NCBI GenBank assembly: GCA_021432635.1
Contig: MU270026.1
Location: 204,486 to 268,485, forward strand
Source: Thozetella sp. PMI_491
Lineage: Eukaryota > Ascomycota > Sordariomycetes > Chaetosphaeriales > Chaetosphaeriaceae
Length of the DNA: 64,000 nt
Reading direction: 5' to 3'
Shown here: piece by piece, positions 1 through 60,787 of the stretch
How positions within the stretch are numbered: the first letter of the stretch is position 1
Layout of the letters: each line of letters opens with the position of its first letter
Notes under the pieces: model-generated
Seen by the model: only the letters and a program-made list of their open reading frames with translations
Database searches by the model: none
Told to the model about the DNA's origin: nothing
Translations under genes and position numbers: made by a program

Positions 1-2735
1 ATAGCTAATACTAAGGTCTCTTGTTATTATTATTTATCTACTCTTACTAGCTTCTCAGCCTTTAAATGCTTAGCTAAGTCTTTTAACTACTTATATATAC
101 CCTAGTTATTACCCTAGTACCTAGGGTAGCTAGTACTTATTAACTACTTTAATACTATAATACTTCTCCTCCTTCTAATAACTAGCTGCCCTAAGCTTTT
201 TCAAGCTTTAATTAGGTAAGTATAGCCTTATTCTGGCTTTTTAAAGGTTAGCTATAATAGCTAGTTAACTAGCTATTATTTTAGGTTAATAACTAGCTTT
301 AATTACCTATATATAGTTAGACTAGTAGAGGCTATATATTATTACTTAGCTTGTTATATAGTAATATAATAATCTTTAGGTTATAAATCTACTGATAAAG
401 ATCTTTAAAGGTTAGCTTATAGATATATTATTATAGATAAACGTCTTACTTAATAAAGACATTTTTAGTCTTTAAGACCTTATAGATCTTATAATAGTAA
501 GGTATGCCTAGCTAGATAAAAATAAAGTAATTGTTATTATAAAAGCTGATTAGTTATAGCTTAAGATTTTTAACTAATAGAATTACTATCTTTGCCTTAT
601 AATATAGTATAATAATAAGTTAAAGATCCTTTTTAAATACTATTATCTGTAATTTATCTAGGTATTCCAACCTAGGTCTTAAATACTTATAAGAAAAAAG
701 TACCTTGTCTTATATATAAGTATAGATAAAATCCTTCTCTTAATTACTAAGTATTTCTTTAATAGCTTTAACTAGTTAATATAAGTAGTTTATACTATTT
801 AAGAGGTAGTTTTTAATATTATTATTACTTATCTCTATCCTAGATATAACCTAAATACTAAAGTTTTAATACCTTTAAATATAATACTAGGCCTACTAGG
901 CTTATATACTTATATATATCTAATAAAGATATATAAAAATAACTCTTTAGTTATTAAATTCCTTATAAATATTAGCCTAAGCCTCTTTATACTTCTCTTT
1001 AGTCTTAGCAAATATAACAAACTTTTAAAGTATTAATACCCCCTTATAATTATAAGTAATTAGCCCTAAAAAGGTTTTATCTAGCTTTTTAATATTTTAG
1101 ATTATATCTTTATTATTAAAATTAAGTAAGACCTAGACTTCTTTATTACTACTGTTAATATTATTATTATTTAAAGTAAAAAGTTGTTTCTACTTTCTTT
1201 TTAACTAGAGAAAAATATTTAAATTAATATAGTAGATATATAGCTATTATTATATATCTAGAAAAGCAGCTCTAAAAGCCTTTTTTATCTATATATTAAA
1301 GTTAGTAATTACTATATTAAGAAGTTAAATCTTATACTAATTAGTTAGTTTTTAAACAGTATTAGCTAGAAATTAAAACCCTTTAAGCCTCTTATTATTA
1401 ATTATGCTAAATATAGTATTAAAAATAGTTTTTAGATAGGTCTAGCTAGTCACTTAAAACAAAGGAAGCTTATAATAGTTAGTATTATAAGTATTATTAA
1501 AACTTATTACCTTAAAAAACTGCTTTTATAGTTATATATAAGAAGGATAGGTCTATATAAGTCCTAATAGATAGTTTAAATTATTATCAGCCTATTTTAT
1601 AATATAGGGAATCTTTTTATTATTAAATAACTTAATTAAAATAATAATAAAGCTATAATTATTAAGCTTTTCCTAGTTGTTTTTTACCCTAGTATTATAA
1701 ATATCTTTCTTAGTTAAAACTAATTTAAGGTACTACTTAGTAATAATTACCTAGATGTTATATACTTAGATATTTATTTATTAACTTATTAACTTAATTA
1801 ACTCTTTAATAAAGTTAATAAGCCTTTTATAAATAGAATATGTAAATAAATTAATATTAAGTATATAATTATATTAAAGGTGCTTTAAGTTAATATATTT
1901 CTAAAGAAGCTATCTGCCTTTCTTAAGGGCTTTAGTAATAACTTTTTACTTATAGTTATACTTCTAAGGCTTTTAATTCTAGAGTTTTTCCCTCTTATTA
2001 GGCTAGGGTGTTTTATAGTGGTTATATTAAAAAGTATATTGTATTACTTAACTATTTTAGGTATAACTATTATATCTACTAATAATAAATCTATTAACTT
2101 TATTAAAAGTATTAACTATATTAAAAAGCTCTTCTATAAAAACAGCTAGTTTATCTAGTATAAGTAGGTTTAAAATCAGAGATATAACTAATTTATTAAA
2201 CTCTAACCCTAATATATAACTACCTTACTTTATTAATAGGCCTAAATATAAAGGTAGGGCTTCCCCTAAAGGGGGGGAGATTAAATCTTAAAGTAGAGAA
2301 TATCCCTATCTCTCCTACTAGTAATAAACTTATTTATATAATTATATAAGGTTAAAGATAAGTTATTAATCTATATTAATTACCTCTTAGACAAGTTTTA
2401 AGGTAGAGGTAAATTAAGCCTAGGATAATATAGCTAAAGTTATAATAGGTAATAACTAGAAAGTAGCTTAATTTTAAAGATAGGTAATTTTAATAGACTT
2501 AGGGCTTAGGATAAAAATATAAATATAATTTTATTTTACTTATTAGGGATATTTAGTAAATCAATCTAGTAGATAGATCTTTAAATCACTCTTAATAGTC
2601 TATAAAGGGTTATTAAACACTTTATTATATAGGTAGGAAATAGTTATAAAGTATTTTAAAAACATAGAAAAAAGGTTTAGTATAGTATTATTATTACTAA
2701 CACTATAGTAGAGACTAACACTAGTTCCTAAGGTA
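1..2735. repeat. AT-rich, RIP-like degraded repeat block
   Basis: The whole stretch is dominated by A and T, very rich in TA steps and almost free of CG, with no usable reading frame on either strand. Composition changes between about 2.7 and 3.2 kb to the near-even base use of the rest of the window. This is the classic look of a transposon relic mutated by repeat-induced point mutation (C to T on both strands). I could not identify the parent element, because stop codons fill all frames. Confidence 0.75.
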
Positions 2736-3047
2736 TTAATGATATCTGACAAACTAAGGGAGCTAGGTATTAGGTTTTAGTGTTATTATTTAGGAGGCGG
2801 CTGTTTTAAATGAGTTATAGTATTAAAGCGTTGCCGCTGTTAGCTTTTGATCGGGCGAATAGGGATAGGTATTAGGTTGTTATTATTATAGTTTAACTAA
2901 AGCTTTTTAAAGAGGTAATAAGACGTGTTTGTATTAGCTTAATTAAAGAAAAACAGCTAAAATAGCTTGGGGTATTTTGGCAGAATTTTAAGTGTGGTAT
3001 ATGTATTAATATTAAAAATTTGGGCCAATAAGAAGCGGTAAAACCGT

Positions 3048-3095
3048 CATGCGTCCGTAAGATCATGCGTCCGTAGCAATTTGTTATGCGTCCCT
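3048..3095 (+). repeat. Three short direct repeats (ATGCGTCC core)
   Basis: Three copies of an ATGCGTCC core, two of them extended to ATGCGTCCGTA, start near 3049, 3065 and 3086. They sit at the edge of the AT-rich block, where subterminal repeats of a DNA transposon would be expected. That role is inference only; no matching inverted terminus was found. Confidence 0.5.
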
Positions 3096-3935
3096 AGTAA
3101 TTCCCTTTATTAATACTGTTGTAATATATTATAAAATAGTTCTTTATTAGTCTATACCACATCAACACTACGATAAAACATAATTATACAGGCCTCCTTT
3201 AACTCACATGTAACCGGTTGCTGCCCGCAGGCATTGGGGCACCCTTGGCCTAAGAGCAAGCCAGCTGGCGACCAGCTGGCGGCAGGCAACGCAACACAAG
3301 TCAAGATCAGGAACGCCTTCTACTCGTACAAGATGTATATACTTTAGACTAGGAACGCCTGGAAGAGGGGGAAGGAACACAAACCCTACGCCTCCTACGC
3401 CTCTACACAAGGGGGAAGGAGAAAACACAATCTAGGGAACGAGATGGAAGAGATAAAGACCCCGGAGGAGAGCGCTCACGAAGCCGCTCTTCTTTTCCCT
3501 CCTTTTTCAGTCAGGGTGTTTTCTAGCTAGGCAGTCCGTTGAATATAACCACCTCATTTGGCTATATATGGCCTAGACAGTAAACTCCTAGGCTTATAGA
3601 TTAAATGCTAAAGGTAGGCATATCGACCCTTTCTAAAAAAGGCTAGAATTTATATTTGGACTAATTGGGGTTGGGGCTAGCAGGGGCTGCGCTGAGTTCG
3701 CCAGGCGGTTCTGGTCGAACGCCCGCAGGACACTACTACAAACTAAAACCCACCCGCAGAGATGCTAAGAGACTGCGTACAGCACAAGGATGCGAAGTAC
3801 AAGTTGACATATTCGCCAAGACCACAGAGACCTTTCAAATGTGAGGAGGGCTATTTTGTGGGAAGCCGATTGGATTTCCTTCAGCCCGGCCCTGGGGGAT
3901 TCTAGAAGAAGCCGAAGGCTTTACCCTTGTGTGCT
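3096..3935. other. Non-coding stretch between AT-rich block and cryptochrome fragment
   Basis: No convincing gene. Mixed composition returns here. A small GC-rich palindromic patch, two CCAGCTGGC units, lies near 3250-3285. Confidence 0.5.
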
Positions 3936-5126
3936 TCATTCCAAACGAAACTCGACGCGGCCGCGGCCGCTCATTTCTCCATCATTGTCATGCCCCCAGG
4001 TTCTCCAGAGCCCGTGGAAGTCACTTCTTCGGCTGCTACTGGCCTCATCTGTCCTGATGACCCGAGCACCCTGGCGGTTGCGTTTCCGCCACTCCAGCTG
4101 GCGCTGCGACCGGGGATCGAGCTCGGAATAGCTGATCGTCCCGACGGCGTTAACACACTGGGGACTCTGATGCAGACCGAGTTGTTCGAGGAGCTTCTTA
4201 GGCGCCATAGCCGGCTGGAAGAGATATTTCAGCTCCACCAGTCCGGCTAGCTCTGGAAGCCATGCGCGGACATATGAGCCGTCCTTGTCGTACTTAAAAG
4301 ATTGGTGCACTGGGTTGGCGACACGGGAATTGCTCCCGCCAGCTTTGTTACCAAAGCCTGCAAAGTACTGCCAGTTCGCCCAATTTGACGCCACATCATA
4401 GTCGACGAGCAATGCTTCGTACATCTCTGCGCCATACGGCCAGTCCATGCCTAAATTCCGGGTAAGGTATGTCGCGACAATCTGGCGAGCCCGATTTGAT
4501 GTATAACCGGTGAAGATCAACTCTCGCTGAGATGCATCGACAAGGCTCATGCCTGTCGTGCCCGCGAAAACCCGTGCCATTGTCTCCGCGATCTTGTCGA
4601 GGTCCTTGATCCGACCTGGTATGACCACGTCTGGGTCGGCGCCCTTGATCCCCCCAAGGCGGAACAGACTGCCCTTTGCCTTGATAGCACAGAGTCGCGT
4701 GTAATCTCGGTATAGTAGTTGAGATCGAAGACTCTCCGTACCCGGGCTCTCCCCCCCCCCGTAGCCTTCGACAGATTCGTACCGGGAATCCAGTCCTTCT
4801 TCGAATTTGATCAGGCGGTGGTGGACTTGCCGAGCGGTGATACAGCCTAGGGCAAGAAAAGCGGACAATTTAGCGCTGAACTTATTCCCAAGCATGTTTC
4901 GGGTCTCTTTATAGTCCTTAAGCTCGCCGGAGAGGATGAGTTGATGTGCCCGCTCCAACGCCGATTCCTCGCCGCCCTCGAACGTATGGGCAATTTCGGC
5001 GCCGGAGAGGGGTCGGCCCACGTTGGGCAGGCAATCCTCAACAGGATCGACCACCGCCTGCTCCAGGCTCTCGATGCTTGCGGGAATCACAAAAGGCTTG
5101 CACTGATCTGGAATGGTCGTGGCGTT
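3936..5126 (-). pseudogene. cry: DASH-type cryptochrome, C-terminal part only
   Basis: Encodes the FAD-binding, helical half of a cryptochrome-DASH (a photolyase-family blue-light flavoprotein). Read from about 5126 downward, the frame enters at a linker (TIPDQCKPF), then shows the family blocks LGCITARQVHH, LLYRDYTRL, FTGYTSNRARQ, DWPYGAEMYE, NWANWQYFAGFG and VRAWLPELAGL, ending at a TGA at 3936-3938. There is no ATG start: the frame runs straight into an A/G homopolymer, so the photolyase N-terminal domain is missing here. That domain lies at 50.3-51.3 kb on the same strand. The C-terminal tail is short, with one SGRGR patch and none of the long RGG tail seen in some fungal relatives. The frame itself has no internal stop, so the break is recent or an assembly effect. 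Confidence 0.85.
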
Positions 5127-5144
5127 AAAAAAAAAAAAAAAAAA

Positions 5145-5174
<30 letters not shown>
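5127..5174. repeat. A18-G30 homopolymer junction
   Basis: Eighteen A followed by thirty G mark exactly where the cryptochrome frame stops being homologous to its family. Such a run may be a sequencing or contig-end artefact rather than real DNA, so the junction here should not be trusted without reads. Confidence 0.85.
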
Positions 5175-38580: not shown

Positions 38581-39097
38581 ATGCTACTCCTGCGCCTGGG
38601 ACTCGCCCTCTCGGCGCTTCATGCCGCCCATGCCACCAATTGTGATTTTAAGGGCGGCTTCGCGATGCGGAAGCCCGGAGGTTGCTCCGGCTCGCAGGTT
38701 CGTTGCGAACGGGGCGTGCAGCCGCGGTGCTGCCCGGGTTCATTCAAGTGCTTCGGACAAATCGACAGCGCCTACTGCTGCCCGACCGAGAGTGACTGTT
38801 ACGAAGATGTCTTTAACAAGCCCCGGGTGCGTCCGCCAGCGAGAGACGATAAGAGAGTGCTTTTCTGACTCAATCCCTCTCCAGTGCGCAAACAGCAGCT
38901 GGTCTCTTTGGGATAACACAGGATCCGTCGAGGACGGCGCGTGGTGCTGCGACGCTGGGTACTTCGGCCTGGCGACACTCCCACACTCGGGGAACGGGGG
39001 TGGCTTTGGCTGCACTCAGTTGGGCTCGTCTCTCGGTTCGTATCAGGCTACGGCTACCGCGGCTCGAAATCTTGAATCGACGTGCGCAGATGCTTAA
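38581..39097 (+). CDS. Cysteine-rich secreted or surface protein
   Basis: Exons 38581-38826 and 38885-39097, 152 residues. After a 21-residue signal peptide come paired cysteines (CCPGSFKC, YCCPTESDC, CANSSWSLW, WCCDAGYFG and GFGCTQ), the pattern of a fungal surface-protein family that normally continues with an S/T stalk, a membrane helix and a tail. Here no membrane helix follows. A tail-like open frame at 39106-39329 (EEEPTQGYLTQAYESQ...) could be added by an alternative intron, 39036-39105, but still without a helix. Either the protein is secreted or the gene has lost its anchor. Confidence 0.65.
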
Positions 39098-39884
39098 TGC
39101 TGGAGCACCGCAGTCGCCAGATTGGTCACAGTTGCCAATAAAAGTTGAGGAGGAGCCGACCCAAGGGTACCTGACACAAGCCTACGAGAGCCAAAGATAT
39201 TACGCACCCCTCTACGAGGCTCCAGGGGCCGAAATCCGAGCATATGATGAATTAGAAGCTCCCAGTGTGCAGAACTATGACATAACAGCCCGGGACCGGA
39301 CGACACATGCGACCGACACGTCCAGATAGAAGCCATCTATGCGCAGCTGCCTAGAATCTAGAGTACTTACAGGCTATGTTTGGTAATCGGTAGCTTTTTT
39401 TTTTAATCACATCTAGAAGTGAAAATCGTCAGTGGAAGGAGGATGCAAGCTCGAAACAGAAAGTACTCGAGCCATAGTAGGCATATTTCCAAAAAAACAG
39501 CATGTGTCATGGTTTAGACTACCGAATTTGGCTGGCGTGGAGCTGCGGTTTTCCGCAGTCCAAACCATCTGGCTAAGTATATGTGGGTCGTCGTGGATGT
39601 ACCTCTTGGCGTTCCCGATACCCGCCCAGGGCCACCAGACCAGCCATAGCCAGAACTCGGGCTGCCAACAGGAGATAGTGATTGGCCATCTCTTCAGCCA
39701 GCGGCCGGGCTGTATGTTAGACAAGGAAAAAAAGAAAAAAAAGGATATAAGTCGCCACCCCCCTCACCCACTTCCTACGACTATGCACCCCAATAGCAGA
39801 ATCACATAGTGTGTCCTCTACCTGCCTGACATATTCGGTACACTGCTAACAATTGACGAATGCAGGTGTCGGTGTGCCTAAAAT
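39098..39884. other. Intergenic between Cys-rich gene and recombinase
   Basis: Contains the orphan tail-like frame to 39329 and a possible TATA (GGATATAAG at about 39743) upstream of the recombinase gene. Beyond this nothing was recognised. Confidence 0.4.
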
Positions 39885-42800
39885 ATGGAGGCAGCGGCCG
39901 CAAGAGTCCGAGCGCAGCGGGCTCAGCTCACGCAACCACGCCAGAAGCCACTAACCTCGGAGAAGCTTCAAGCATGCTACCATCGAGCAAACCGGCGACG
40001 CCCTATACGGCGACCACGCGCGCCAAGAACCATAATAAATGATGTCTTAACGCTGCAACGATGGAAATTGTTTGCATCTCATTTCGAAGACCCCAAAGGC
40101 CGAGACTGGAAGGAGCTTGTTAGAGCCTTGTCCTGGGATGAAAGAGGCCTCGTGGAAGCGTATGGTAAATGGGCGATGGAAAGAGCCGGAGCAAGAATCA
40201 AAAGCGAGAGTGCGGTGCGTAGGTACTTCCGGAATTTATCGGCGCTCTACTTCAGGTTTAAAGGGGAACATTTGGACCTTCGACTCCGGGACCACATGCT
40301 GACTGTGGTACGATCGGAAATCACCCCGAACTACGGACTGCGAACGGAACCAAAGCGCAAAAACATCCTTGGGCCTCGCGCTTTCACCTATCTGGTTCAC
40401 TTTGCGTGGGTTCGCTGGCGAAGACCTTTCAAAATTGGCCTCGACCGGAGCGATCACGTACTTTGTGAGATGCTCGAAGAATGGACTGGTTGCCGCCGGC
40501 ATGAGTTGGTATACGCCAGCCAAGATATCGACACCTATATGCGGCAATACGACGAAGAGTCGGATGCCTTCACCGATGTCGAGGATGCCTCAGACAATGA
40601 CGTTATGAAGCAACCTAAGAAGTGCTGGACCTGCAGTGAGCTGGATGGCAGGACCCACCCTCAGTACCAAGTCATCTGCTGGGAGGATGTGACCCTTGGT
40701 ATTCTTCGCGACCCTTTCGACACCGGCCGAGATGTATTCACGATGGACATCATGCTGAGATTCCACAAAAATCACAATAAAGAGACACGCCCGACCAAGT
40801 TCCACTTTGAGGAGGAGGAATATCCCCTTCTCTGCCCTATCGCCATCCTTATCTCCAAGGCAGCTGCTGAGGGTGCGATCGATTTCACCAAATTAGGCAT
40901 CGATGTCTCCGAAAAGAGTATGGAAGACATCATTTGCGCTCTCTATAACACCAAACTCCACCGTCCATCAGTCACGATACCCTGGAAGAAGGAGTTCTGG
41001 CATAGGCCAGTATTCCGCAAGACAGCATTCACCGCCGAGGGCAAACCAGTGAAGACAGATCAGCCTGTCACGGCGGCAATGCATGACAACAATCTTCGTA
41101 ACCACGGAAAGGATGCAGGTCTGCCAGATAATTTGAAGTCATACGACTTTCGTCGAGGGAACTTAGACACTCTTGAGAGTAAGTTGTTAACGCCGGCCTA
41201 GATTGTACTCTGCTGACACTTTAGAAGCGAATTTCAACCCAGCCACTCGCAATCGTGGAGCAAGACACCGGCCCGGCACCACTGTATTTGAGACGTTCTA
41301 TTACGGTGACGGCATGAAGTGCATCACCCAGAATGCGTTCCTGGGGCGCGGCGCTCACTCGCCCCTCCTGGATATTGTTAATTATATTGGGGTCATTTAT
41401 GACGAGAATGCCCCGACAGAAGCAACGGAGGAGATGATGCGTGCTGTCGGGTACAGTGAACTTGTGGTTGAGCTCGACCAAGAGCTGGCTGCCCTTGAGG
41501 CTGAACTTCGATCCAAGTACGGGAGCATCAGACTGTCCACACCAGCAGAGAGGGAACAGCACGCCAAGTTACAGACTCGCCGACGATATGCGAGGCAGAC
41601 GGATCGAAGGCGGACTGGCCAGCTCTTCCGCAAAGATTACTTCGACACGAAAAACAATGAGGAGCTCAGCAGACAGCTACAAAGCGAAACGCGACCAGAG
41701 ACCAGTGAAACGCTCCGGCAAGTTTATTTCAGTTGTCCGGAACGGAGACGGATTGCCGCTCTTGCCGGTGATTTCGATAGTGAGCTTACTGAAGCGGAAA
41801 AAGTACAGAGGAAGGTCGACTGGACCTTAGCCTTGTTCCATTATGCCTTTGTGGTCGAACAAAAGGAGCCACTTGAAGCGACATATAATGATATGACCCA
41901 GCCGAAACTAGAAAACGCAAAGCCCCCACACCGTCCATGGTTTACATCCATGATCCAAGACCCGGCAGGACCACCGGTTTGGGCGCCAGAGTTCAGTACA
42001 ATGAAAAATATCCCTCCCAAGGCAAGAAAAGGCCCATACGAGTGTCCATTTTGTAGAAAACGGCCCAAGAGGAGAGCAACGATGTGGAACTGCGCCGACC
42101 GGCATCTCAGTCGCATGACGGCCGGCATTCTCTGCCCACGTTCGAATTGCACATCTCAAGGCACCTCCTTCGAGAGCGAAATGGAGTTCAAGAATCACAT
42201 GGCAGCGGACCACCAAATATACCTCAGGCCCATAGCAGGCAGCTACGAGGTTGCATTTACTCATTGCGAGATGACGCATGACATTACCGTTGGAGAATCG
42301 CCAACACCTGTTGCACATGGAGACGAGCTCTTGATGGACGATATAACAAGCGAACATGCACCTCCCTTGATATATCCAGAGCCGGATAGTGGGACCTGGG
42401 CCTCGACTTTTGCTGTATCCAATGCGAAGGCGGAATCAGTCGGGGTTGCAGACTCAAGAGCGCTGCTTTTGCCCGGCCCAGAGAATGACTTTACCACAGA
42501 GCAGCTGAACAGCAGCCTTGACGAGTTCACTTTGCCGGATCAATGCTACGGCTGGGCATTGCCACCTACGGCTGAGGAAGTCGAGATGTTTGATGGAGGG
42601 TTACAGTGCCTACAGGACATAGGCGACAACATTATAGACCCAACTCTCCGAGATGGCATGATATCGGGTCGTCAGCCAGGAGAAGCAATCGTCGCTGAAA
42701 TCTGGCCTGGAGACTCAGAGCCGGAGCCAGAACCCCCGTCGCCAGCCCCCGAATCGGATCCGACCTTCTCGGGTTTGCCTCACAGAGCATTGGAGGCCCT

Positions 42801-43083
42801 TACTATGGACATCGATACACACTGCCAGAAAGCCCCAGAGCCGGGAGACGGATTATGGAACGTGGACAGTCTAGTCGGTCGGTACTCGGAGACATGTCTT
42901 CTGAGGGGTCGGGAGCGAAAGGAGGTAAAATATCGGGTCCGCTGGGAAGGCTGTGAGGACAAGGATGATACATGGGAGCCGAAGTCAGAGCTCTTGAGAG
43001 GTGGAAAAGAGGTCCGAAAAATGGTAAAACAATTTGACATTGACTACCCATTAGTGGAAGGCGATATCGACCTGACTAGTTAG
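39885..43083 (+). CDS. DUF3435 tyrosine recombinase fused to zinc clusters and a chromodomain
   Basis: Exons 39885-41178 and 41225-43083 (46-base intron, GTAAGT...TTAG), in phase, 1050 residues. The N-terminal half is the DUF3435 recombinase of fungal giant mobile elements (Starship captain or crypton-type). Box I is TGCR204RHEL; VICWEDVTLGILRDP and YPLLCPIAILI are family blocks; the active site continues as Y420DFR423, H446 and Y457/Y458 in FETFYY. C-terminal to this lie CPFC and related Cys/His clusters (about 705-770) ending HMAADH. Residues about 975-1040 read as a chromodomain (YRVRWEG, DDTWEPKSEL, VRKMVKQF). It should cut and rejoin DNA, and the chromodomain may steer it to methylated histone; both are inferred. 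The full set of catalytic residues suggests it is intact. Confidence 0.85.
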
Positions 43084-43450
43084 GTGAATTTTCTGCTGAT
43101 AAATGTTGTTAACTCCTCTGCGCCCTCCCGGGAAGCGTAGGGAAGATCACTTGAGGTAGCTTTTGTTAGTCTCTTGCTTGCTCTTCCTTTGGGACTGGTT
43201 GCCCGAGGTAGTACTTGGCTGGGCAAATAGGGTTAAGGCGTCAGAAATGGTCCGTGCTCTCCGGGCTATCTGTACCGACTTTGCGAGAAATGAGCCCTCA
43301 GTCAGGCCACTAAGCCCGAGTTGTGGCGCTATAAGGCCGGAGTTGCCACAAGCCGGGCCCGTGGCCGATACAGCTTTGTATAAATCAACGTCCTCCACGT
43401 TTTCAACGTCTTCAAACTTTACCACCGCCTGATAGACACCTTCGTGGACC
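43084..43450. other. Region just 3' of the recombinase
   Basis: Frames of about 90-100 residues exist on both strands, but none is recognisable. No terminal repeat visible. Confidence 0.35.
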
Positions 43451-43678
43451 ATGGCGCTCTATACTCTCCAAAACGCCGAACGACGTGAAGCCCAGATAAA
43501 GGCGAAGCGACTCGCGCTTAAGGTGCTGCGAAGGCGAAGGACAATCCTCAATTCTGTCCACCGGTTTTTCAACGAATTTGGGCTACGGGCCTACGTGCAT
43601 CTCGAAAAGTATGGCAGGGCCGGCAGTTATGATGTCTATACCTCACTAGATCCGTTACACCAGTCGATCGTAGGTTGA
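43451..43678 (+). CDS. Small basic protein, possibly mobile-element associated
   Basis: 75 residues from ATG at 43451 in a good context (GACCATGG). Its core (LRRRRTILNSVHRFFNEFG, then YDVYTSLD) resembles small MADS-like fungal proteins often found near repeats, but no confident family assignment is possible. It lies 370 bases after the recombinase, same strand, and could be an accessory gene of the same element. Treat as hypothetical. Confidence 0.35.
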   Translation: MALYTLQNAERREAQIKAKRLALKVLRRRRTILNSVHRFFNEFGLRAYVHLEKYGRAGSYDVYTSLDPLHQSIVG

Positions 43679-44574
43679 ACTTTGCCTGCACGCACTGCAG
43701 AGGTTCTTCGCTAATCATACAGGCGAAATGTTACCCCTTGCCTATTGTGTATACGCCTGGTAATGTGGCTACGCTGTGGAAAGGCACGAGGGCAGGTAAA
43801 TACAAGACGAAGACTGGTAGGAACCTAGAAGCTTAGTCCGGCAAGCAACCTATAGAAACACTATGAGGGCTTACATCTTGGCATAAACGAATGGTTAGGT
43901 TGTCTTCGGAATCGTATGCCCTACCCCCTTACGATCTAAGAGAGGAAATTACACTGCTACTGCCCGACTCAGCAGCCGTTGCATTTAGGGAGTCATTAAG
44001 TTTAAGCCGTTAGGACAACCAGGGCCCACCGGGGGTCAGCAGGCAACACAGGAAGTTACCAAAGCAAAGGAAAGGTATGTGCCCAGTCTATCGACGCGGG
44101 CAAGGGAATAAGGGATATAAGAGCTAGCTAGCGATTATGTGATTGCAAGAATCGCCTAGAATAGAAGGTTCTATACTCTTTATAAATAGCTGGATGCGCG
44201 TGGCTGGGCAGGGTTGGAGGGGGTAAATATTGCAGTGAAATTCTGCAAACACCCGGATGTAAGGTTCGTAGAGGTTACAGCGTGCTTGCTCGCATAGTTA
44301 CTGTAGCTCTGTACCAGCTCTTCTCTATTTTCGTACAAGGATTGGGACAGGCTATACTGGCTTTCTCTCCTTTAGGATATAGAGGACAGGCTCTTCGATC
44401 TCAGGAAGCCTGACTCGGACGGATTCGTCGACGTCCTCGTGGCCAACGGGCCGGCGAGCGCGCCAGCGCCACACCGGCATGTCGTGGTGGACCTTGTGGG
44501 AGACACGGCCCCCAGAAGAACACCAAGGGCGAAAGGCCGGCCGACCGGCGATTGGATGCCGGGTAACCAGTTGG
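43679..44574. other. Non-coding stretch, nothing recognised
   Basis: No gene signal; only short open frames. Confidence 0.4.
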
Positions 44575-44712
44575 AGAGGACCAGTCAGGGGGGCAGAGAA
44601 CCAGTCAGTGGGACAGAGAACCGGCCAGGGGGAGAGAACCGGTCGGGGGGACAGAGAACCGGTCAGGGGGACAGAGAACCGGTCAGGGGGACAGAGCCAG
44701 TGAGGGAGACCG
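44575..44712 (+). repeat. Minisatellite, ~20 bp unit
   Basis: About six to seven imperfect tandem copies of a unit built on GACAGAGAACCGGTCAGGGG, lengths 16-20 bases. It lies within a 102-residue open frame (44439-44744) whose peptide is repetitive and not recognised as a gene product. Confidence 0.8.
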
Positions 44713-44819
44713 AAAACCCGGATCCCTTCCCTAGTGTTTTATAGCAGGGTAGGCTAGAGGACTAGACCGTTGGAGAAAGTGGCACTGCTTGTCCAGCCTC
44801 TAGCGAGACTGTCCATCGC

Positions 44820-45420
44820 CTAATCTACAAAGAGAAACTGCCCCGAGACCGCACCCATGATCACCAACAAGAGTGCGGTGTACTTGTTGGTGAACTTGTA
44901 CAGAACCGCAAGGGAAAGCATGTACAGAACCGCCGCCGGGCCCACCTGAGCGGTTTTGTCAATCACCTCCCCAATAGGCATGTCCTTCAGCTTGTCCAGG
45001 GAGCCTTCAATACTAGCCTTGAGAATCCTGTACTACCCCGCCACAGGCATAAGAGCTTATTGGAATGCGTGTCCTGCCGGTGACTAGCCGAGGAAGCGGT
45101 TCGCCTTCCCGTACTTGAGCCTTATCTCGGGGCGGCGCAGAAGTTCTGCAGCAGGGGCTTCAACTAGAACACCACGCGACTTGCTCTTATAGAATGCACA
45201 GTCGCATTCAGCCGTAGAAGCGTCAACAGCCCGAAAATTGGCTACATTGAATCAGTATAAAGCTCAAGAGACGTAAATCGGCGGAAACCCGTACCTCCCT
45301 CCAACCTCTTCTCCCAGCACGACCAGCTTATTTCCGACACCACGGTCGAAAGATACTCAGTTTCGCCTCGCACTATTCTGAAAAGGTAAACTTCCTCGAA
45401 GAATAGTACTAGTGCGTCCA
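44820..45420 (-). pseudogene. Broken gene for an unrecognised protein with C-terminal membrane helices
   Basis: The minus strand carries three coding-like pieces in different frames. One ends in MPIGEVIDKTAQVGPAAVL and KFTNKYTALLLVIMGAV-type hydrophobic sequence with a stop at 44820; one reads GVLVEAPAAELLRRPEIRL near 45120-45200; one reads FDRGVGNKLVVLGEEVGGR near 45310-45370. The C-terminal piece would span the membrane once or twice. Frame changes and lack of consistent splice sites suggest a decayed gene. I do not recognise the family; whether all three pieces belong together is not certain. Confidence 0.4.
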
Positions 45421-47750
45421 TTGGAGGAAGGATAGTTGAAAGAGGTTTGTAGGTACAGTCTCAGAATGTGGCATCAGAAAAGGAAGGTGAGCAGATACGT
45501 GGAGTTATGGGGCAGTAGTGCCAAGATATAATGCTAGCTACGGCCGCTTCAGGCCTCTACACTTATCCAGACAGCTGCATAGAATAAGCAAGCTGGTGGC
45601 TCTGGGTTTGCCCAGTACTTGGAGTTAGAAGCTGGTCCAAGGATTGTGGCGCTCCCTGACCGATTCCTAACCAGCCACGAGTGATCCAGGTAGCTTCGTC
45701 CGAGACAAGCCATACTCAATTGGTTGTTAGCACTGGCGCCTTGGCGCTCTGGCGCTGTGTCTTCACTGGCAACGGAGCTGCTCAAGGTCGGATTGAGAGC
45801 GCCAGTCTCCCAGAGCAGAAAAAAATACAGGTGGCTATGTACAATCGGTTAACCAGACCGGCCGGCCTCCGATTTCTCTGTCGTCTTTGTTGGTGCAGCC
45901 TGAGGTTGTTGACTGCTGGATGGAGAGGGGCTTGGAGCAGTTCGAGGTTACGGCACAGCCACTGTCACGATCGGCGGACATGATTGGGTAGTCACAGCGG
46001 CAGCGCTGCGCCGTGGCGCCATGGGGTCGGACGTCACATAGCCCAGACATATAATTGTGTGCCGCAGGGGTGTGCGCTTCCACTCTTGGATGACTTCAGG
46101 CCGCTCACAGCGAGCTTGATGCAGTCCGGACGTAGAAAGGACCGTGGACTCTCTCAACCGCTATAGCCATCATACGAGCTCTATACTGCCACGGTGTTCC
46201 TCACGGCTCCCACCATAGCCACTCCAAGGGCTTTCACATGATCATCCCTGACGAGCGAGCGCCGCCAAATCCGAGTCATGGAAGGAAAGGCTAGTGGCAT
46301 GGCAGGCGTCAGCACCAGGAGACAAGGACACGGAGAAGAAAAAAAGAAAAGCATAGAAAGCATGTCCTGCCATTTAGGACTTTCGGGGGGCCAGTTGTCC
46401 CCGTAACGTACATGAATTTCTTTATGCTCCGAAAATAGGACGGCGTGACCCTCGGCCCTTCACCCTTAGTGCGCCACCGTGAGGCACCTGCGAGCCGGCC
46501 ATACCCATTGACCCAAAGCAACGGCTATCACGAAAGAAAACCCACAGCAGGTTTTTTAAGACCCGTAGTGCCAGACACTGTATAGACATTTTTTTTTTTT
46601 TTTTTTTAGTTAGCCTTCTCTAAAGGTCTGGCCACTCCGCAACTTGTAGCTAGTAAGCCTTCAGTCGCCAGCCACACTGCGGCAGGGTACAGTAATCGGT
46701 GACTGAACGCAGCCACATTGCTTCTCCGCTGCCAAAGACTAACACCCACTGGAGATTTTCGGAGCGGTTGTATGTCTGCAACGCCTGAGCCGATCGTCTG
46801 GGAACCCGCTTGCAAGCCGGTGGAGCCTGTCACATGAGACATCGTATGATACTGTGTATGTAGTGATTCACAAACGTATGATAACATTAATTTTGACTCA
46901 GGATTCCGATATAATAGGGCCTAGACTTGGTGTCTTAGATTACCTCCGTGTAGGTCTGTTGTAAACTTGGGGAATGGAGACATAAGATGGGGAGCCGATA
47001 AAGGACAGATATCTATCCGCACCTTTGTCGCTGGCGTAAACTCCGGAAGACACAGGTATTACGAGTAAATTATGGCTGTTCACTCAAATTAAATCAGACG
47101 CGACCTGGCGAAACTCTGTTCCCTAGCCTCAGGCCATTCGTACTATTGATTGCGCGAGTGTACCGTCTATCTTCCTAGCACGAAGCAGTCAGTGAAATCT
47201 TAGGCTAGGCCACTAAAAGCTAGGCGTATACTAGCCCTAACTTACTCATCGTTAACCTTATCAATACAGGGTGTCTATCAATAAACCTTTCATTGCCATC
47301 GCCTACCCTTCCAAGCTCTCCTCCAGGCCATGTCGTATCGGATCACGGCAAGCACAGCGACTCATAAACTCACTAGTATTTACAGTTCTTACACTAGTTA
47401 CAGTTCTACTTAACAAGGCCACCGCAAGAGTAGATCGTAATCCACAGCCTGGTGGTGATATCCAGGTGAAGGTGGGACGCATGAAGACCTCGTAGGCCGC
47501 GATTAGCTTGTACAACGGACCTCGTAGCCGGCATAGAACACCCTCGTGAACTAGAATTACCGAATTAGCGGGTCATACCGCTAAAGCCATCCACAGTGAA
47601 TAGCCCGCCTCGGCGAACTCGTCGCTATCACTGTTTTATATAGCTACTGCTCAACTAATCCTGCAGAAGCCAAGCCTAGCTCACATGGGATATGAGTTCC
47701 TAGGAGGCACAACGTGAAGATACTAGGCCCCAGACCGAGATTGTTCAATC
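45421..47750. other. Long non-coding stretch
   Basis: About 2.3 kb of mixed composition with no recognised gene. A T19 run sits at 46589-46607. Confidence 0.4.
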
Positions 47751-48330
47751 CTATACGGCCCCAAGCGCCAAGCCAGCCGGATCGAATTCCTGGTACCCAA
47801 GTAACAACCTCGTCACCACTACGGCTTCATAGAGCGGCGAGGCTCGTTTTCTCACCGCCACGCAATTGCAGGCATAGTTACGGTCGCCATACATCATATA
47901 CACCTTGAATCCGCTGTTAAAGTAGACCACCGCGTCGAAGAAACCGCCGAGCGCGAGGTCATTCGTGCCAACAAAGTCTTCATACACCGCACGGGAAGAA
48001 GCAGAGGAATTTTCAAAACACACAAGAGCGCCCAATATCGATTCCTACAGCAAGTAGCCATGCATTCTCGGCTCGGGGAAAGGGTCGTACTTAGAGTAGC
48101 CAATATCATACCAGTCACGCTTATCATCCACCTCGGTCTAACGACAACATCTCCTAGGAGCAACCAGAGGCAAGCCATCCTCAGGCAGGCACATATTCTA
48201 CCAGCGCGACACAGTAATATTCCGTCCCTTCCGGCTCTCTTGGCACGCAACCAGTTACCCCGGCCACTCCCAATCGTACCACAACTCGTCATAAACGCTC
48301 TACTACAAGGTTATGGAGGGGTCTGTTTTC
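47751..48330 (-). pseudogene. Serine carboxypeptidase (S10) pseudogene, C-terminal part
   Basis: Minus-strand translation gives the end of an S10 carboxypeptidase: VYDELWYDWEWPG, SRKGRNITVSRW, DKRDWYDIGYSKYDPFPEPR, LGALVCFENSS and VYMMYGDRNYACN (the Asp of the triad lies in the YGDR block). At least four stops interrupt it (after DWEWPG, after SRW, before TEVDD and after HGYLL). The CAG to TAG type changes fit C-to-T decay. The catalytic-serine half is not found upstream, where an intact GT34 gene starts. Dead gene with high confidence. Confidence 0.75.
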
Positions 48331-48499
48331 ATCAAGCCAAAATATGCACACGAAACTGCGATCAACGTCAGCGGGATCTTTCGGAAATGGAAGCGGTTCA
48401 TTGCGAAGTCCAAAAGGCGCCGGTTTCGATAGAATATACCCTCAGCTAACCTCTCAATTAGAGTACCGCGATAAGTTGAAAGTCGGAGCTAGAAGGTGA

Positions 48500-50300: not shown

Positions 50301-50411
50301 GTGTACCCAGGCTCTCCCCCCCCCCCCCCTAGCCTTCGACAGATTCGTACCGGGAATCCAGTCCTTCTTCGAATTTGATCAGGCGGTGGTGGATTTGCCG
50401 AGCGGTGATAC
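50301..50411. repeat. Duplicate of cryptochrome segment at 4.73-4.84 kb
   Basis: This stretch repeats 4730-4843 almost exactly: beyond the C-run only one base differs over about 80 (GTGGATTTG versus GTGGACTTG). A C14 run here replaces C10 plus G there, turning a Tyr codon of the frame into TAG. About a dozen bases of similarity continue left of the C-run before the sequences part. The duplicated part forms the left edge of the cryptochrome N-terminal fragment. Confidence 0.8.
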
Positions 50412-51344
50412 NNNNNNNNNNNNNNNNNNNNNNNNNNNNNNNNNNNNNNNNNNNNNNNNNNNNNNNNNNNNNNNNNNNNNNNNNNNNNNNNNNNNNNNNN
50501 NNNNNNNNNNNNNNNNNNNNNNNNNNNNNNNNNNNNNNNNNNNNNNNNNNNNNNNNNNNNNNNNNNNNNNNNNNNNNNNNNNNNNNNNNNNNNNNNNNNN
50601 NNNNNNNNNNNNNNNNNNNNNNNNNNNNNNNNNNNNNNNNNNNNNNNNNNNNNNNNNNNNNCGGGAGCTTCGATGCGGAAGGTCGCGGCACGGCTGCGCG
50701 AGGTTTGTTGCTCAGGGGCTCCAAGCTCTTGCGATACTCGGCAAAGACATTGGGGAGATCGTCGAGGCTCTCAACAGGCAAGTCGCGACTGTGTAGGCAT
50801 TCTTAGGATGTGGCAGCGACAATCCCGGGACAGTCGATGTCACTCACTCGTCAATGTAGTACTTCTCGTCCTTCCAAAGCTGGAATTCTACACCCCTCTC
50901 TTTGCAAACTTTGCGGACAGCCTTTTCGTCTCGCTCTTCTTCGACTCCTATATCCTCTGTCATCCAAACGGCGCCCACCTGAGTGTCGCTAGGCAAGCCA
51001 TCAAGGAGATGTTCGACCACGTCGCGGAACAGGCCAACACGCATAATCATACCGCAGCCGAGGGATTCGTACGCCTCCTTCAGTTTCCACACACTTTGGG
51101 CGACAAACTTGGCACGGTGGGGACCACAGCGACGGTAGCCTGCCACGCGGCTCCGAGCCTCGGGGTAGGGACTGGTGCTACACTGCACAAATCCTGAAGT
51201 CTCCATCTGTTGCGCGTCAAAGATATATACAGGCAGTAAGTGGGTGAAGGCATGGTCGGTTGTAGCTAGGCGGTCGAGGATGGGATTGTCGGAGACTCGC
51301 AAGTCCCGTCGTAGGAGATACACAAGAATGGTTGATGCGGGCAT
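50330..51344 (-). pseudogene. cry: DASH-type cryptochrome, N-terminal part
   Basis: ATG at 51344; first exon 50848-51344, 59-base intron, second exon from 50788 downward into the N gap, then on to a TAG at the C-run. The photolyase-type domain is clear: ILVYLLRRDLRVSDNPIL, LLPVYIFDAQQ, then DVVEHLLDGLPSDT and a KYYIDD hinge, followed by ESLDDLPNVFAEYRK, where the family's middle linker begins. After the gap comes ITARQIHHRLIKFEEG and a stop. It therefore lacks the FAD-binding half, which lies at 3.9-5.1 kb on the same strand. Neither half alone should make a working flavoprotein. Confidence 0.85.
50412..50661. other. Assembly gap (250 N)
   Basis: Unresolved bases inside the cryptochrome. The size agrees roughly with the missing coding length between SASKLP and ITARQ judged from the other copy. 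Confidence 0.99.
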
Positions 51345-52186
51345 TGCGATTCGAAGGCCGGGTTCAGGAGTCGCTCATGGAGTAGGGACGAAGAGGTCGC
51401 TCATTGATGAAGTTCTGGCCTCGTTATATATACGGCATATGTGGTGGGGCTATAAAGGGCATGGTCTAGACCTAGATACTCTTATCCGCGGGATTGCCGA
51501 GTCACCTGAGGATGCAAGTATTGAAGGGCGCTTTCGGCATGCTAGAATTCCAATCGAGGAACCTTGGAGCCACCGAGCAAGGCTGGAATGTTATTCGACT
51601 TAAATACAAGATAGCATCTGTCTTATACTGCTCAGCTTATATCCCAATATCGCAGACACATCCCTGTGCAACTCCAATCTTCACACTATTCCTCCTATAG
51701 AACTCTAAATCTTGCGAGTTAAACTCTAACTCTAAGTCAACGGATTCCGCTAATGTTAACACACTAGCCTTTTGACACTCTGGATGGATAGAACTACCGC
51801 TGAACCTGAGCACTGCTAATCCGTGTAGTTCTTGACAGAAGTGTCTAATGGCTCCGGGACGATTAGGCGGATGGAAGTCTTGGCTACGTTTCCTACGGAC
51901 TCCACCTGTGATTCGGCCTTATACGCAGCCGAAGTTTGCGGAGACTGTGCAGGGAGAGCATTGGTAATATTGATCGGCGGACAGATGGCTAGGGTAGAAG
52001 CTATACTCTCTTCGTCCAGTAACTCTTCCATATACAGCTACTAGCATACCTCCTCTAGCACAGAATTATACCCCTCCCATTTTATATCTTACTGTGCGTG
52101 CTTGATACGCCTCGCTAGGTGGCAGGTCTTGAGCCCGTAGTGCCTCACCTCCGTCAATGCCAATCCAGCAATAGGTGCCATTACTT
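51345..52186. other. Non-coding stretch upstream of cryptochrome N-part
   Basis: Would hold the cryptochrome promoter. No clear light-responsive motif could be assigned by eye. Confidence 0.35.
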
Positions 52187-58867: not shown

Positions 58868-59500
58868 CTAGGCCGGTGCTGACTGGGGGTGCAGATTGTG
58901 GCGGGCCAGTGTGGGTTGTGGTAGTGTGGTAGGCATTTTCGAACTTCGGCGGGCAATGATAGACTTTTGAAGCCTTAAAAGGCGCAAACCATTATCTCTG
59001 GGCCCGTGATGGGAGACACTGACGTTTGAAAGTTTCAGACATGGCAGGAAGAACCAGGCTTTGCCGCAGAAACTAGGCTGGTTTCCATAGTTGATGCGAT
59101 CTTTGTATTGACACTCCGAACATACATTGTTGAAATGGCTGGGCATGTAGGTGCACTCGGTGAAATAGCGAAAACCGGACGTATGGGTACAGTGGCAGCA
59201 CCGGCCTACACGTACCCCGAAAATGGCGGTGAGCAGACCGTTAAAATAAGTAGTATGCTTCCAAATCGACTCCATAGAGAAGGTTTGAAGGTAGCGTCGG
59301 TTCACTTTGATGGCTGGACGCACGGTATTGTTCCCTATTATAGCCCGCTGCACCTGGCTAGAAGAGTGTGCTACTAGCCAGCTCCAGAAAGTAGTAGTGC
59401 CACAATGTAAAATGGCTTGATCCGGTATGCCATCCAGATAAGAAACATGGTTGTTCCACGTCTTCTCGGCAGCATTAATGTTGTGGGGCGTAGGGTTCAT
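58868..59500 (-). CDS. Hypothetical protein with DUF3716-like zinc motif
   Basis: Single frame, 210 residues from ATG at 59500 (MNPTPHN). The middle (about residues 105-150) has a DUF3716-like pattern: RCCHCTHTSG, ECTYMPSHFNNVCSECQYKD and QPSFC, i.e. C-x2-C ... C ... C-x2-C. Such domains are common in fungal genes near repeats and of unknown role, possibly DNA-related. The rest has no known similarity and the C-terminus looks low in conservation, so the gene could be longer with introns or partly decayed. Confidence 0.5.
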   Translation of the reverse strand: MNPTPHNINAAEKTWNNHVSYLDGIPDQAILHCGTTTFWSWLVAHSSSQVQRAIIGNNTVRPAIKVNRRYLQTFSMESIWKHTTYFNGLLTAIFGVRVGRCCHCTHTSGFRYFTECTYMPSHFNNVCSECQYKDRINYGNQPSFCGKAWFFLPCLKLSNVSVSHHGPRDNGLRLLRLQKSIIARRSSKMPTTLPQPTLARHNLHPQSAPA

Positions 59501-60787
59501 TATCGGCGTTGAGATCACAAGTTGGCCGCACCGCGGGACTAAGTGCTCCTAACAACGGAAGAAATTGCCGAGGGTATGAACGATAAGACCCTATGAAGTA
59601 ATATCAAGTCAATTGGGGTACTTTGAGAAGTCTGATACCGTACCCTTAGGCTCTTTTTATTGTAGAATTCTACTGCAGAGTGGTTCTTTGGCATGAATGC
59701 TCCGGAAACAAGGTACGCTACTGCCGCTTCCAAACTTTTTGCTTTTACAATGATCCGATAATAAGCGGGGCACGGCACGGTTAGTGCCGACAAAGGAATG
59801 GAACGGGTGTTGTCCGCCTATAGCGTACACTTTCCCTCCGCTATGCAAACGCTTCTCGCCCCGGAGACGCTTATTACTTAGCTAACAAGGGCAACATTCC
59901 GCGCAGATAATAGCGGTATTAGTCGGTCAGCTCGGGATCGGAAACTCAGACATATGGCTCGGTCACGACGTACTGTAGCGTCGTGGTGGGGTATAACGAC
60001 GGTCAATCCCTTCGTAGGGATAATCTCAGGGTGTATTGCTTGCGCCCGTGGCGAGCTGGTAAGGATCGAGCACGTCATCTAGTGCAAAACTTGGTGGATT
60101 AGGTTGGAGCAAGCTGGCTCCTTGGAGATGCGTGGGTTTGAACGCAACATCGAGCGTTGCAGAAGATTGGGTACGGCGCGGCTATGACGCCAGGCAAGCT
60201 GTGCAGTTCAGGCGTATCAACGCCAGATCGTATCTAGCCCCTCCCTGTCGTTTTCGCCTGCTCCAACGGACAGTAAGTACTACAATGAGGTGTAATTGAT
60301 GAAACTGCCTAACGGAGATATTGAACCTTACTAAATAAAGGACTGGAAACGCATAGAGTCGGTTACCATCTATGGGGGCTTCGGCCTTATCGCCCTCATT
60401 CACTGTCGACTTCTTGCTTTTTAGTGTTTAAAATCTCCTCGAGCTCCTATTTAGCTCCTTCTGTCATTGTAGCTTTAGTAATGGTCTAGGAAGACGTGAA
60501 AATCGTCTGGTTTTCCACTTATTATATATCCCCCTTATATTGTATATTGAGACTCAGAGAAGCATAATAGTAGAAAAATATGTAATAAATATAGCCGCTG
60601 CAGAACCAGGTAAGAGCATATTACGCTCTTGGTACAGGAGGGGTTCGCATCTACTATCTCACACACCTACCATCAGAGGGAAGGGCAAACATCTACCGGT
60701 ATAGTAGTTATGAGGAGATAAGGCTAAGAGTGCCTCTGTGCAGAAGTACATCAATAGCTGACCCCGGTGGTGCTGCTGCCCGTGCTC
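59501..60787. other. Non-coding stretch with AT-rich patch
   Basis: No gene recognised; an AT-rich patch covers about 60420-60600. Confidence 0.4.

Follow-up and report, generated by a model that had tools for sequence, protein, structure and literature searches.

The stretch of DNA analyzed here, called the window below, comprised 64,000 nt of contig MU270026.1 from Thozetella sp. PMI_491 (positions 204,486-268,485, forward strand), and all positions are counted from its first base. A gene that joins a DUF3435 recombinase domain to a C-terminal chromodomain, a small module that commonly recognizes chemical marks on chromatin, was located at 39885-43083 on the + strand. Translation after intron removal gave a product of 1050 amino acids without an internal stop. 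The earlier note had given the gene these coordinates, this length and a 46-base intron, and it was right on each. The features of the gene were as follows.

39885..41178, +: exon 1, residues 1-431 and the first base of codon 432, open from the ATG, matching DUF3435 profile positions 6-203
41179..41224, +: intron of 46 nt predicted from the sequence, with a GTAAGT donor, a CTGAC branch-like site and a TTTAG acceptor
41225..43083, +: exon 2, the rest of codon 432 to residue 1050 including the stop, with DUF3435 profile positions 218-407 and the Chromo match in the same frame
40389..41811, + (span including the intron): DUF3435 domain, residues 169-627 (Pfam PF11917, E 3.2e-44)
40494..40496, +: R204 in TGCRRHEL, presumably the box I Arg of tyrosine recombinases
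41142..41153, +: Y420-D-F-R423, presumably the Y-x-x-R box
41266..41304, +: H446 to Y457/Y458, presumably the region of the His and the nucleophilic Tyr
42043..42213, +: two C2H2-spaced Cys/His clusters, seen by eye, with Pfam zinc-finger matches below their cut-offs
42214..42852, +: linker from the clusters to the chromodomain, open and with no consensus intron, acidic and rich in proline toward its end as judged by eye
42853..43050, +: chromodomain region, approximately residues 975-1040, with the Pfam core at residues 996-1024 (42916-43002), based on PF00385, PDB chromodomains and alignment

The gene model was examined in both exons. An in-frame TAA stop (39879-39881) preceded the ATG and was separated from it by one codon. 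The 46-nt intron contained the stop of the first open frame, and its removal restored a single frame. When the exons were compared separately with DUF3435 in Pfam, exon 1 matched profile positions 6-203 (E 1.6e-23) and exon 2 matched positions 218-407 (E 1.4e-14). The intron was thus well supported, since the two exons matched consecutive segments of the same profile. A scan of the whole gene with the consensus pattern GTRNGT ... CTRAY ... YAG, with length limits, recovered exactly this intron, and the pattern had no second match inside exon 1 or exon 2. The stretch of residues 628-1050 was open for 423 codons, for which the probability by chance was approximately 1.6e-8 given the stretch's own dinucleotide composition, and the other five frames over it contained 10 to 22 stops each. 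On the strength of the 423 open codons and the lack of a second consensus intron, a hidden intron or frame break between the domains was rejected.

An error in the gene model, in which two transcripts or a mis-spliced model put an unrelated chromodomain into the same frame, would agree with the weak codon-usage scores. Among the three sense frames, the true one ranked first or tied for first in 11 of 14 windows of 75 codons; among all six it did so in 8 of 14, and in 4 of 4 for residues 751-1050. The margins were small. This scoring was itself weak, with one of its eight training stretches out of frame, and it was given no weight. However, the length of the open stretch and the missing second intron both speak against such an error, as does the position of the window's sole N run (50412-50661, 250 bases) outside the gene. 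We found an error of this kind hardly credible. At the level of sequence, DUF3435 and the chromodomain are in one reading frame, with no obvious artefact.

The recombinase region and the Cys/His clusters

The whole protein matched PF11917 with 151.9 bits against a cut-off (gathering score) of 25.8, over positions 6-407 of the 418 in the profile. R204, Y420-x-x-R423, H446 and F-Y457-Y458 followed one another as the Arg, [Y/H]-x-x-Arg, His/Trp and Tyr of the active site do in tyrosine recombinases. R204, Y420/R423, H446 and Y457/Y458 are presumably the active-site residues, with either Y457 or Y458 as the nucleophile. The catalytic residues had been called complete in the earlier note, and all the motifs were indeed located in order. 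However, comparison of the recombinase part with PDB by sequence gave a single match, at E 1.4, and the word complete stands for the presence and order of the motifs. By these motifs, the recombinase looks uneroded. Neither of the two exons matched a PHROGs or NCBIfam family at E <= 1.

Downstream of the recombinase domain, two clusters of Cys and His residues were seen by eye. The first was C705-x2-C708-x12-C721-x3-H725, in which Cys replaces the first His of a C2H2-type finger. The second was C735-x4-C740-x15-H756-x4-H761, in which the middle is longer than in a C2H2-type finger. The clusters noted earlier were thus present with C2H2 spacing, but no Pfam finger reached its cut-off; zf-Di19 scored 14.7 bits against 27.5.

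The C-terminal chromodomain

In the whole protein, PF00385 (Chromo) matched residues 996-1024 with 29.7 bits against a cut-off of 25.1 (E 5.9e-7). When the C-terminal 77 amino acids were scanned alone, the score rose to 35.1 bits against the same cut-off (E 1.3e-8). The match spanned profile positions 12-43 of 53. The C-terminal 79 amino acids were also compared with PDB using phmmer, and 61 distinct sequences were matched at E <= 1; among the 60 listed, the chromodomains of CDYL, CDY1 and MPP8 stood at the top (E 2.9e-5 to 1.5e-4). With a profile made from five known chromodomains, the protein scored 29.2 bits, whereas the highest score among 2000 shuffled versions of it was 11.2. AlphaFold2 run without relatives was uninformative, with a mean pLDDT of 42.6 for the C-terminal 88 amino acids and 36.7 for exon 2. 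By sequence, the C-terminal domain is a real chromodomain. A profile search, one of the checks that the earlier note had proposed, detected both DUF3435 and Chromo above their Pfam cut-offs, and its claim that one protein carries the two domains held in one open frame.

The residues expected to form the aromatic cage were located by alignment to the five chromodomains. W976 and W1005 were aromatic and the third position was C1008, where the positions were assigned through the HP1 cage. Trp at the first cage position also occurs in the solved HP1 chromodomain sequence 6mha. The alignment further gave an insertion of about 6-7 residues, which makes a longer loop after the first strand. A methyl-lysine reader of the HP1/CDY type has a full cage of three aromatic residues, and two of three were aromatic here by alignment. 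For this reason, the chromodomain was not classified as a methyl-lysine reader. With C1008 in the cage and the extra residues in the loop, the domain may bind methyl-lysine weakly or not at all.

The Cys at the third position and the long loop are in line with another reading, in which the chromodomain works but is not a guide for insertion. The incomplete cage would bind DNA, RNA or another protein, or the domain would tether the enzyme to its own (silenced) element or keep it away from there, and excision or expression would be regulated instead of target choice. Chromodomains with other binding partners are known. The chromo domains of CHD4, for example, are described as binding DNA (PMC3476528), which also favors this reading. 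However, two of the three cage positions remain aromatic, and the Trp at the first of them is shared with HP1 in 6mha. We considered a non-guiding chromodomain rather unlikely.

Surroundings of the gene and element ends

The ORFs on the two sides of the gene differed in their matches to Pfam. Upstream, between 7.5 and 35.4 kb, 9 of the 10 ORFs tested had a Pfam family at E <= 0.001. Families at the same threshold were also found in a photolyase-type fragment (3.9-5.2 kb) and in a Zn-cluster ORF (11.5-13.2 kb). Nearer to the gene, neither of the two ORFs at 38.4-39.3 kb had a family even at E <= 5. Downstream, between 43.4 and 48.3 kb, none of the 10 ORFs tested had a Pfam family at E <= 5 (26 ORFs of at least 70 amino acids lay in 43090-48400), and the same was found for all four ORFs at 53.8-58.0 kb. 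Farther downstream, Pfam recognized a photolyase-type fragment (50.8-51.4 kb) and the following genes.

48.5-49.2 kb: GMA12-type glycosyltransferase
62.1-63.2 kb: Myb-like gene

Several smaller features were observed downstream. An ORF of 75 amino acids (43451-43678, +) lay about 370 bp downstream of the recombinase on the same strand; its product was basic and resembled a MADS-box-like short protein by eye, and Pfam gave nothing at E <= 5. A tandem array of about six copies of a G-rich 20-bp unit (AGAGAACCGGTCAGGGGGAC) was found at 44567-44718. The ORF at 58871-59548 (-) matched DUF3716 weakly, with 17.6 bits where the cut-off is 22. ARAGORN found no tRNA genes in the window.

The downstream ORFs bear on where the chromodomain came from. 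It might be a passive tail without a selected role, perhaps from a retrotransposon integrase, that a solo DUF3435 gene picked up at its 3' end. Its place at the extreme C-terminus would suit such a capture. DUF3435 genes are reported to occur more usually as solo copies (PMC12134995), and chromodomains are reported in fungal retroelements and Mavericks (PMC10799480). However, the domain has a well preserved core (YRVRWEGCEDKDDTWEP), and no stop interrupts residues 628-995. In addition, no retroelement domain was seen beside the chromodomain, since 0 of the 10 downstream ORFs tested had a Pfam family at E <= 5. A captured tail without a role was judged unlikely.

Base composition was compared along the window. 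The recombinase gene had no RIP signature (TA/AT 0.61, (CA+TG)/(AC+GT) 1.27), and its present site, with 52% GC, was neither AT-rich nor RIP-like. In contrast, positions 1-2000 were strongly RIP-like (TA/AT 1.68, (CA+TG)/(AC+GT) 0.21). They belonged to an AT-rich block at 1-4000, with 22% GC in the first 2 kb and 37% in the next. The strong RIP indices in this block suggested that the host probably has, or had, RIP. Downstream of the gene, a lean toward RIP was patchy: TA/AT was 1.19 and 1.12 at 44-48 kb and 1.25 at 58-60 kb, against 0.89 at 48-50 kb and 0.86 at 54-56 kb. The composition change at the gene would fit, weakly, an element that begins on the left with this gene as its captain and extends rightward.

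Ends of such an element were searched for as words shared between 39091-39885 and 43085-64000, and none was recognized by this search, to which short repeats are invisible. The longest common words were 13 bp in direct orientation (A-rich) and 11 bp inverted. They were no longer than expected by chance, because 11 of 40 control pieces of the same length reached 13 bp direct and 38 of 40 reached 11 bp inverted. The direct repeats of Starships are reported as 2-12 bp long (PMC12153272), and the shared-word test thus neither shows nor excludes an element. The gene may be a Starship captain or a solo copy, the latter being the case reported as more usual (PMC12134995).

These surroundings also bear on a further reading, in which the DUF3435-chromodomain protein has been domesticated: it would work for the host and would have ceased to move DNA. 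Ordinary Pfam families upstream, the lack of RIP in the gene and the absence of ends from the shared-word search would all agree with a host gene. However, all of the recombinase motifs are present, which domestication does not require. We regarded a domesticated gene as very improbable.

Possible chromatin docking and comparison with known systems

We propose, with a probability of about one half, that the locus carries an uneroded gene for a DUF3435 tyrosine recombinase, the type of enzyme by which Starships are mobilized, with a chromodomain of its own that docks on chromatin and biases where the enzyme works. The recombinase domain would cut and rejoin DNA through its active-site tyrosine, and the zinc clusters, together with the N-terminal part, would bind a DNA sequence. 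The chromodomain, carried on a long linker, would dock on chromatin through a histone tail, modified or not. Docking would then bias the enzyme's site of work, most probably by choice of the insertion region and possibly through access to its own element for excision. We give about even odds to an effect of docking on insertion, or on how the enzyme reaches the element's own copy, and chromatin-guided insertion is plausible. C1008 in the cage, the loop insertion, the lack of recognized element ends and the single example count against this proposal. Targeting to constitutive heterochromatin in particular fits poorly with a present site of 52% GC that is not RIP-like, and a single site proves little.

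Two Starships provide the closest comparison. In Sanctuary, the first gene is reported to be a DUF3435 captain and the conserved last gene a chromodomain gene, ROU50; the authors describe heterochromatin targeting as a "purely speculative" hypothesis (PMC12506042). Frontier of Alternaria ventricosa is reported with the same two conserved ends, a captain and a chromodomain gene (PMC11857905). Its authors considered that the terminal regions, the captain and the CHROMO protein may be the minimal unit of transposition, and they suggested target choice as a role of the chromodomain protein (PMC11857905). Chromodomain-guided Starship insertion is therefore already in print, as speculation for a separate gene (PMC12506042, PMC11857905). 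In the present gene, as in Sanctuary and Frontier, both protein domains belong to one genetic unit, whereas there each domain has a separate gene, one at either end of the element, and here they form a single protein. By the logic of gene fusions, the fusion found here would suggest that the separate proteins of Sanctuary and Frontier work together. The occurrence of separate chromodomain and captain genes at the ends of these elements would be the strongest indirect argument that the two domains have a joint function. Starship captains in general share with the gene a DUF3435 domain over nearly the whole profile and the recombinase motifs. They differ from it in that a C-terminal chromodomain is present here, and the gene is known here without recognized element ends or cargo.

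Enzymes that integrate DNA and carry a C-terminal chromodomain are known from other mobile elements. Chromodomain integrases of retroelements were reportedly targeted to heterochromatin in the work of Gao et al. of 2008. Chromodomains are reported in fungal retroelements and Mavericks (PMC10799480), and integrases with a C-terminal chromodomain in the Ty3/Gypsy retroelements (chromoviruses) and in Mavericks (PMC10799480, PMC12477816). The present protein resembles them in joining an enzyme of a DNA-integrating type to a C-terminal chromodomain. However, those enzymes are integrases and this one is a predicted tyrosine recombinase, and no retroelement domain was found in the 10 downstream ORFs tested. 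Among chromodomains, those of CDYL, CDY1 and MPP8 were the top PDB matches, and the domain is like those of CDY/CDYL, MPP8 and HP1 in its aromatic first and second cage positions. It differs from them in the Cys at the third position and in the longer loop after the first strand.

In the searched literature on DUF3435 and chromodomains, no description of a recombinase-chromodomain fusion was met among the matches listed, which agrees with the earlier note, whose author knew of none. No publication in the literature searched named PF11917 together with PF00385. Relatives of the protein were looked for in viral contigs, where 8 stretches matched a peptide pattern, none encoded a relative and further patterns had no match, and in prokaryote genomes, where 23 stretches matched a pattern and none was a relative; plasmids gave none either. 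These missing relatives say nothing about fungi, because the three collections are not fungal.

The fusion would have consequences beyond this locus. How giant fungal transposons select their insertion sites is only partly understood; the targets named are short motifs in the sequence and, in certain families, 5S rDNA or other transposons (PMC12134995, PMC12153272). If a recombinase of the captain type carries a chromodomain itself, chromatin targeting could be tested directly on a single protein. Such an enzyme would also provide a link to the chromodomain gene, as yet unexplained, at the other end of Sanctuary and Frontier. A bolder idea is that a lineage of giant fungal transposons put the targeting module into the recombinase itself. 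The result would be a chromatin-reading tyrosine recombinase, of which Sanctuary and Frontier, with their separate chromodomain protein, would have the split version. We offer this only tentatively, as a possibility that is probably not the case. Such a recombinase would differ from the known chromodomain-carrying enzymes of mobile elements, which are retroelement and Maverick integrases in the portions of the literature searched. The fusion would be of little importance should the domain turn out not to read histones, or should the fusion be confined to one genome.

Repeats and a split gene elsewhere in the window

Two pairs of longer repeats were considered as the ends of a Starship led by the gene and were rejected, since in each pair both copies lie wholly downstream of it. 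The inverted pair at 46865-46980/63539-63654 consisted of a repeat of about 116 bp that was 81% identical over 95 aligned bases. The direct repeat at 52176-52939/60777-61542 was about 765 bp long and 75% identical over 808 aligned columns, and 80 of its 119 substitutions were transitions. It looks like an old dispersed repeat.

A photolyase/cryptochrome-type gene was also considered, as a target of the recombinase. It was split into two parts, both on the - strand (3939-5126 and 50303-51374), with the N-terminal part (PF00875) at 50.8-51.4 kb and the C-terminal part (PF03441) at 3.9-5.2 kb. This candidate was rejected because the recombinase gene lies in the interior, where about 7 kb separate it from the nearer break, and both breaks carry signs of assembly error. 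The two parts had a stretch in common, with 94% identity between 4738-4843 and 50303-50411. At one break (5127-5174), 18 A and 30 G formed a run, and a run of 250 N bases lay near the other, which indicated assembly trouble at the split. These observations suggested that the split is an assembly error, with a real insertion of about 45 kb as the alternative.
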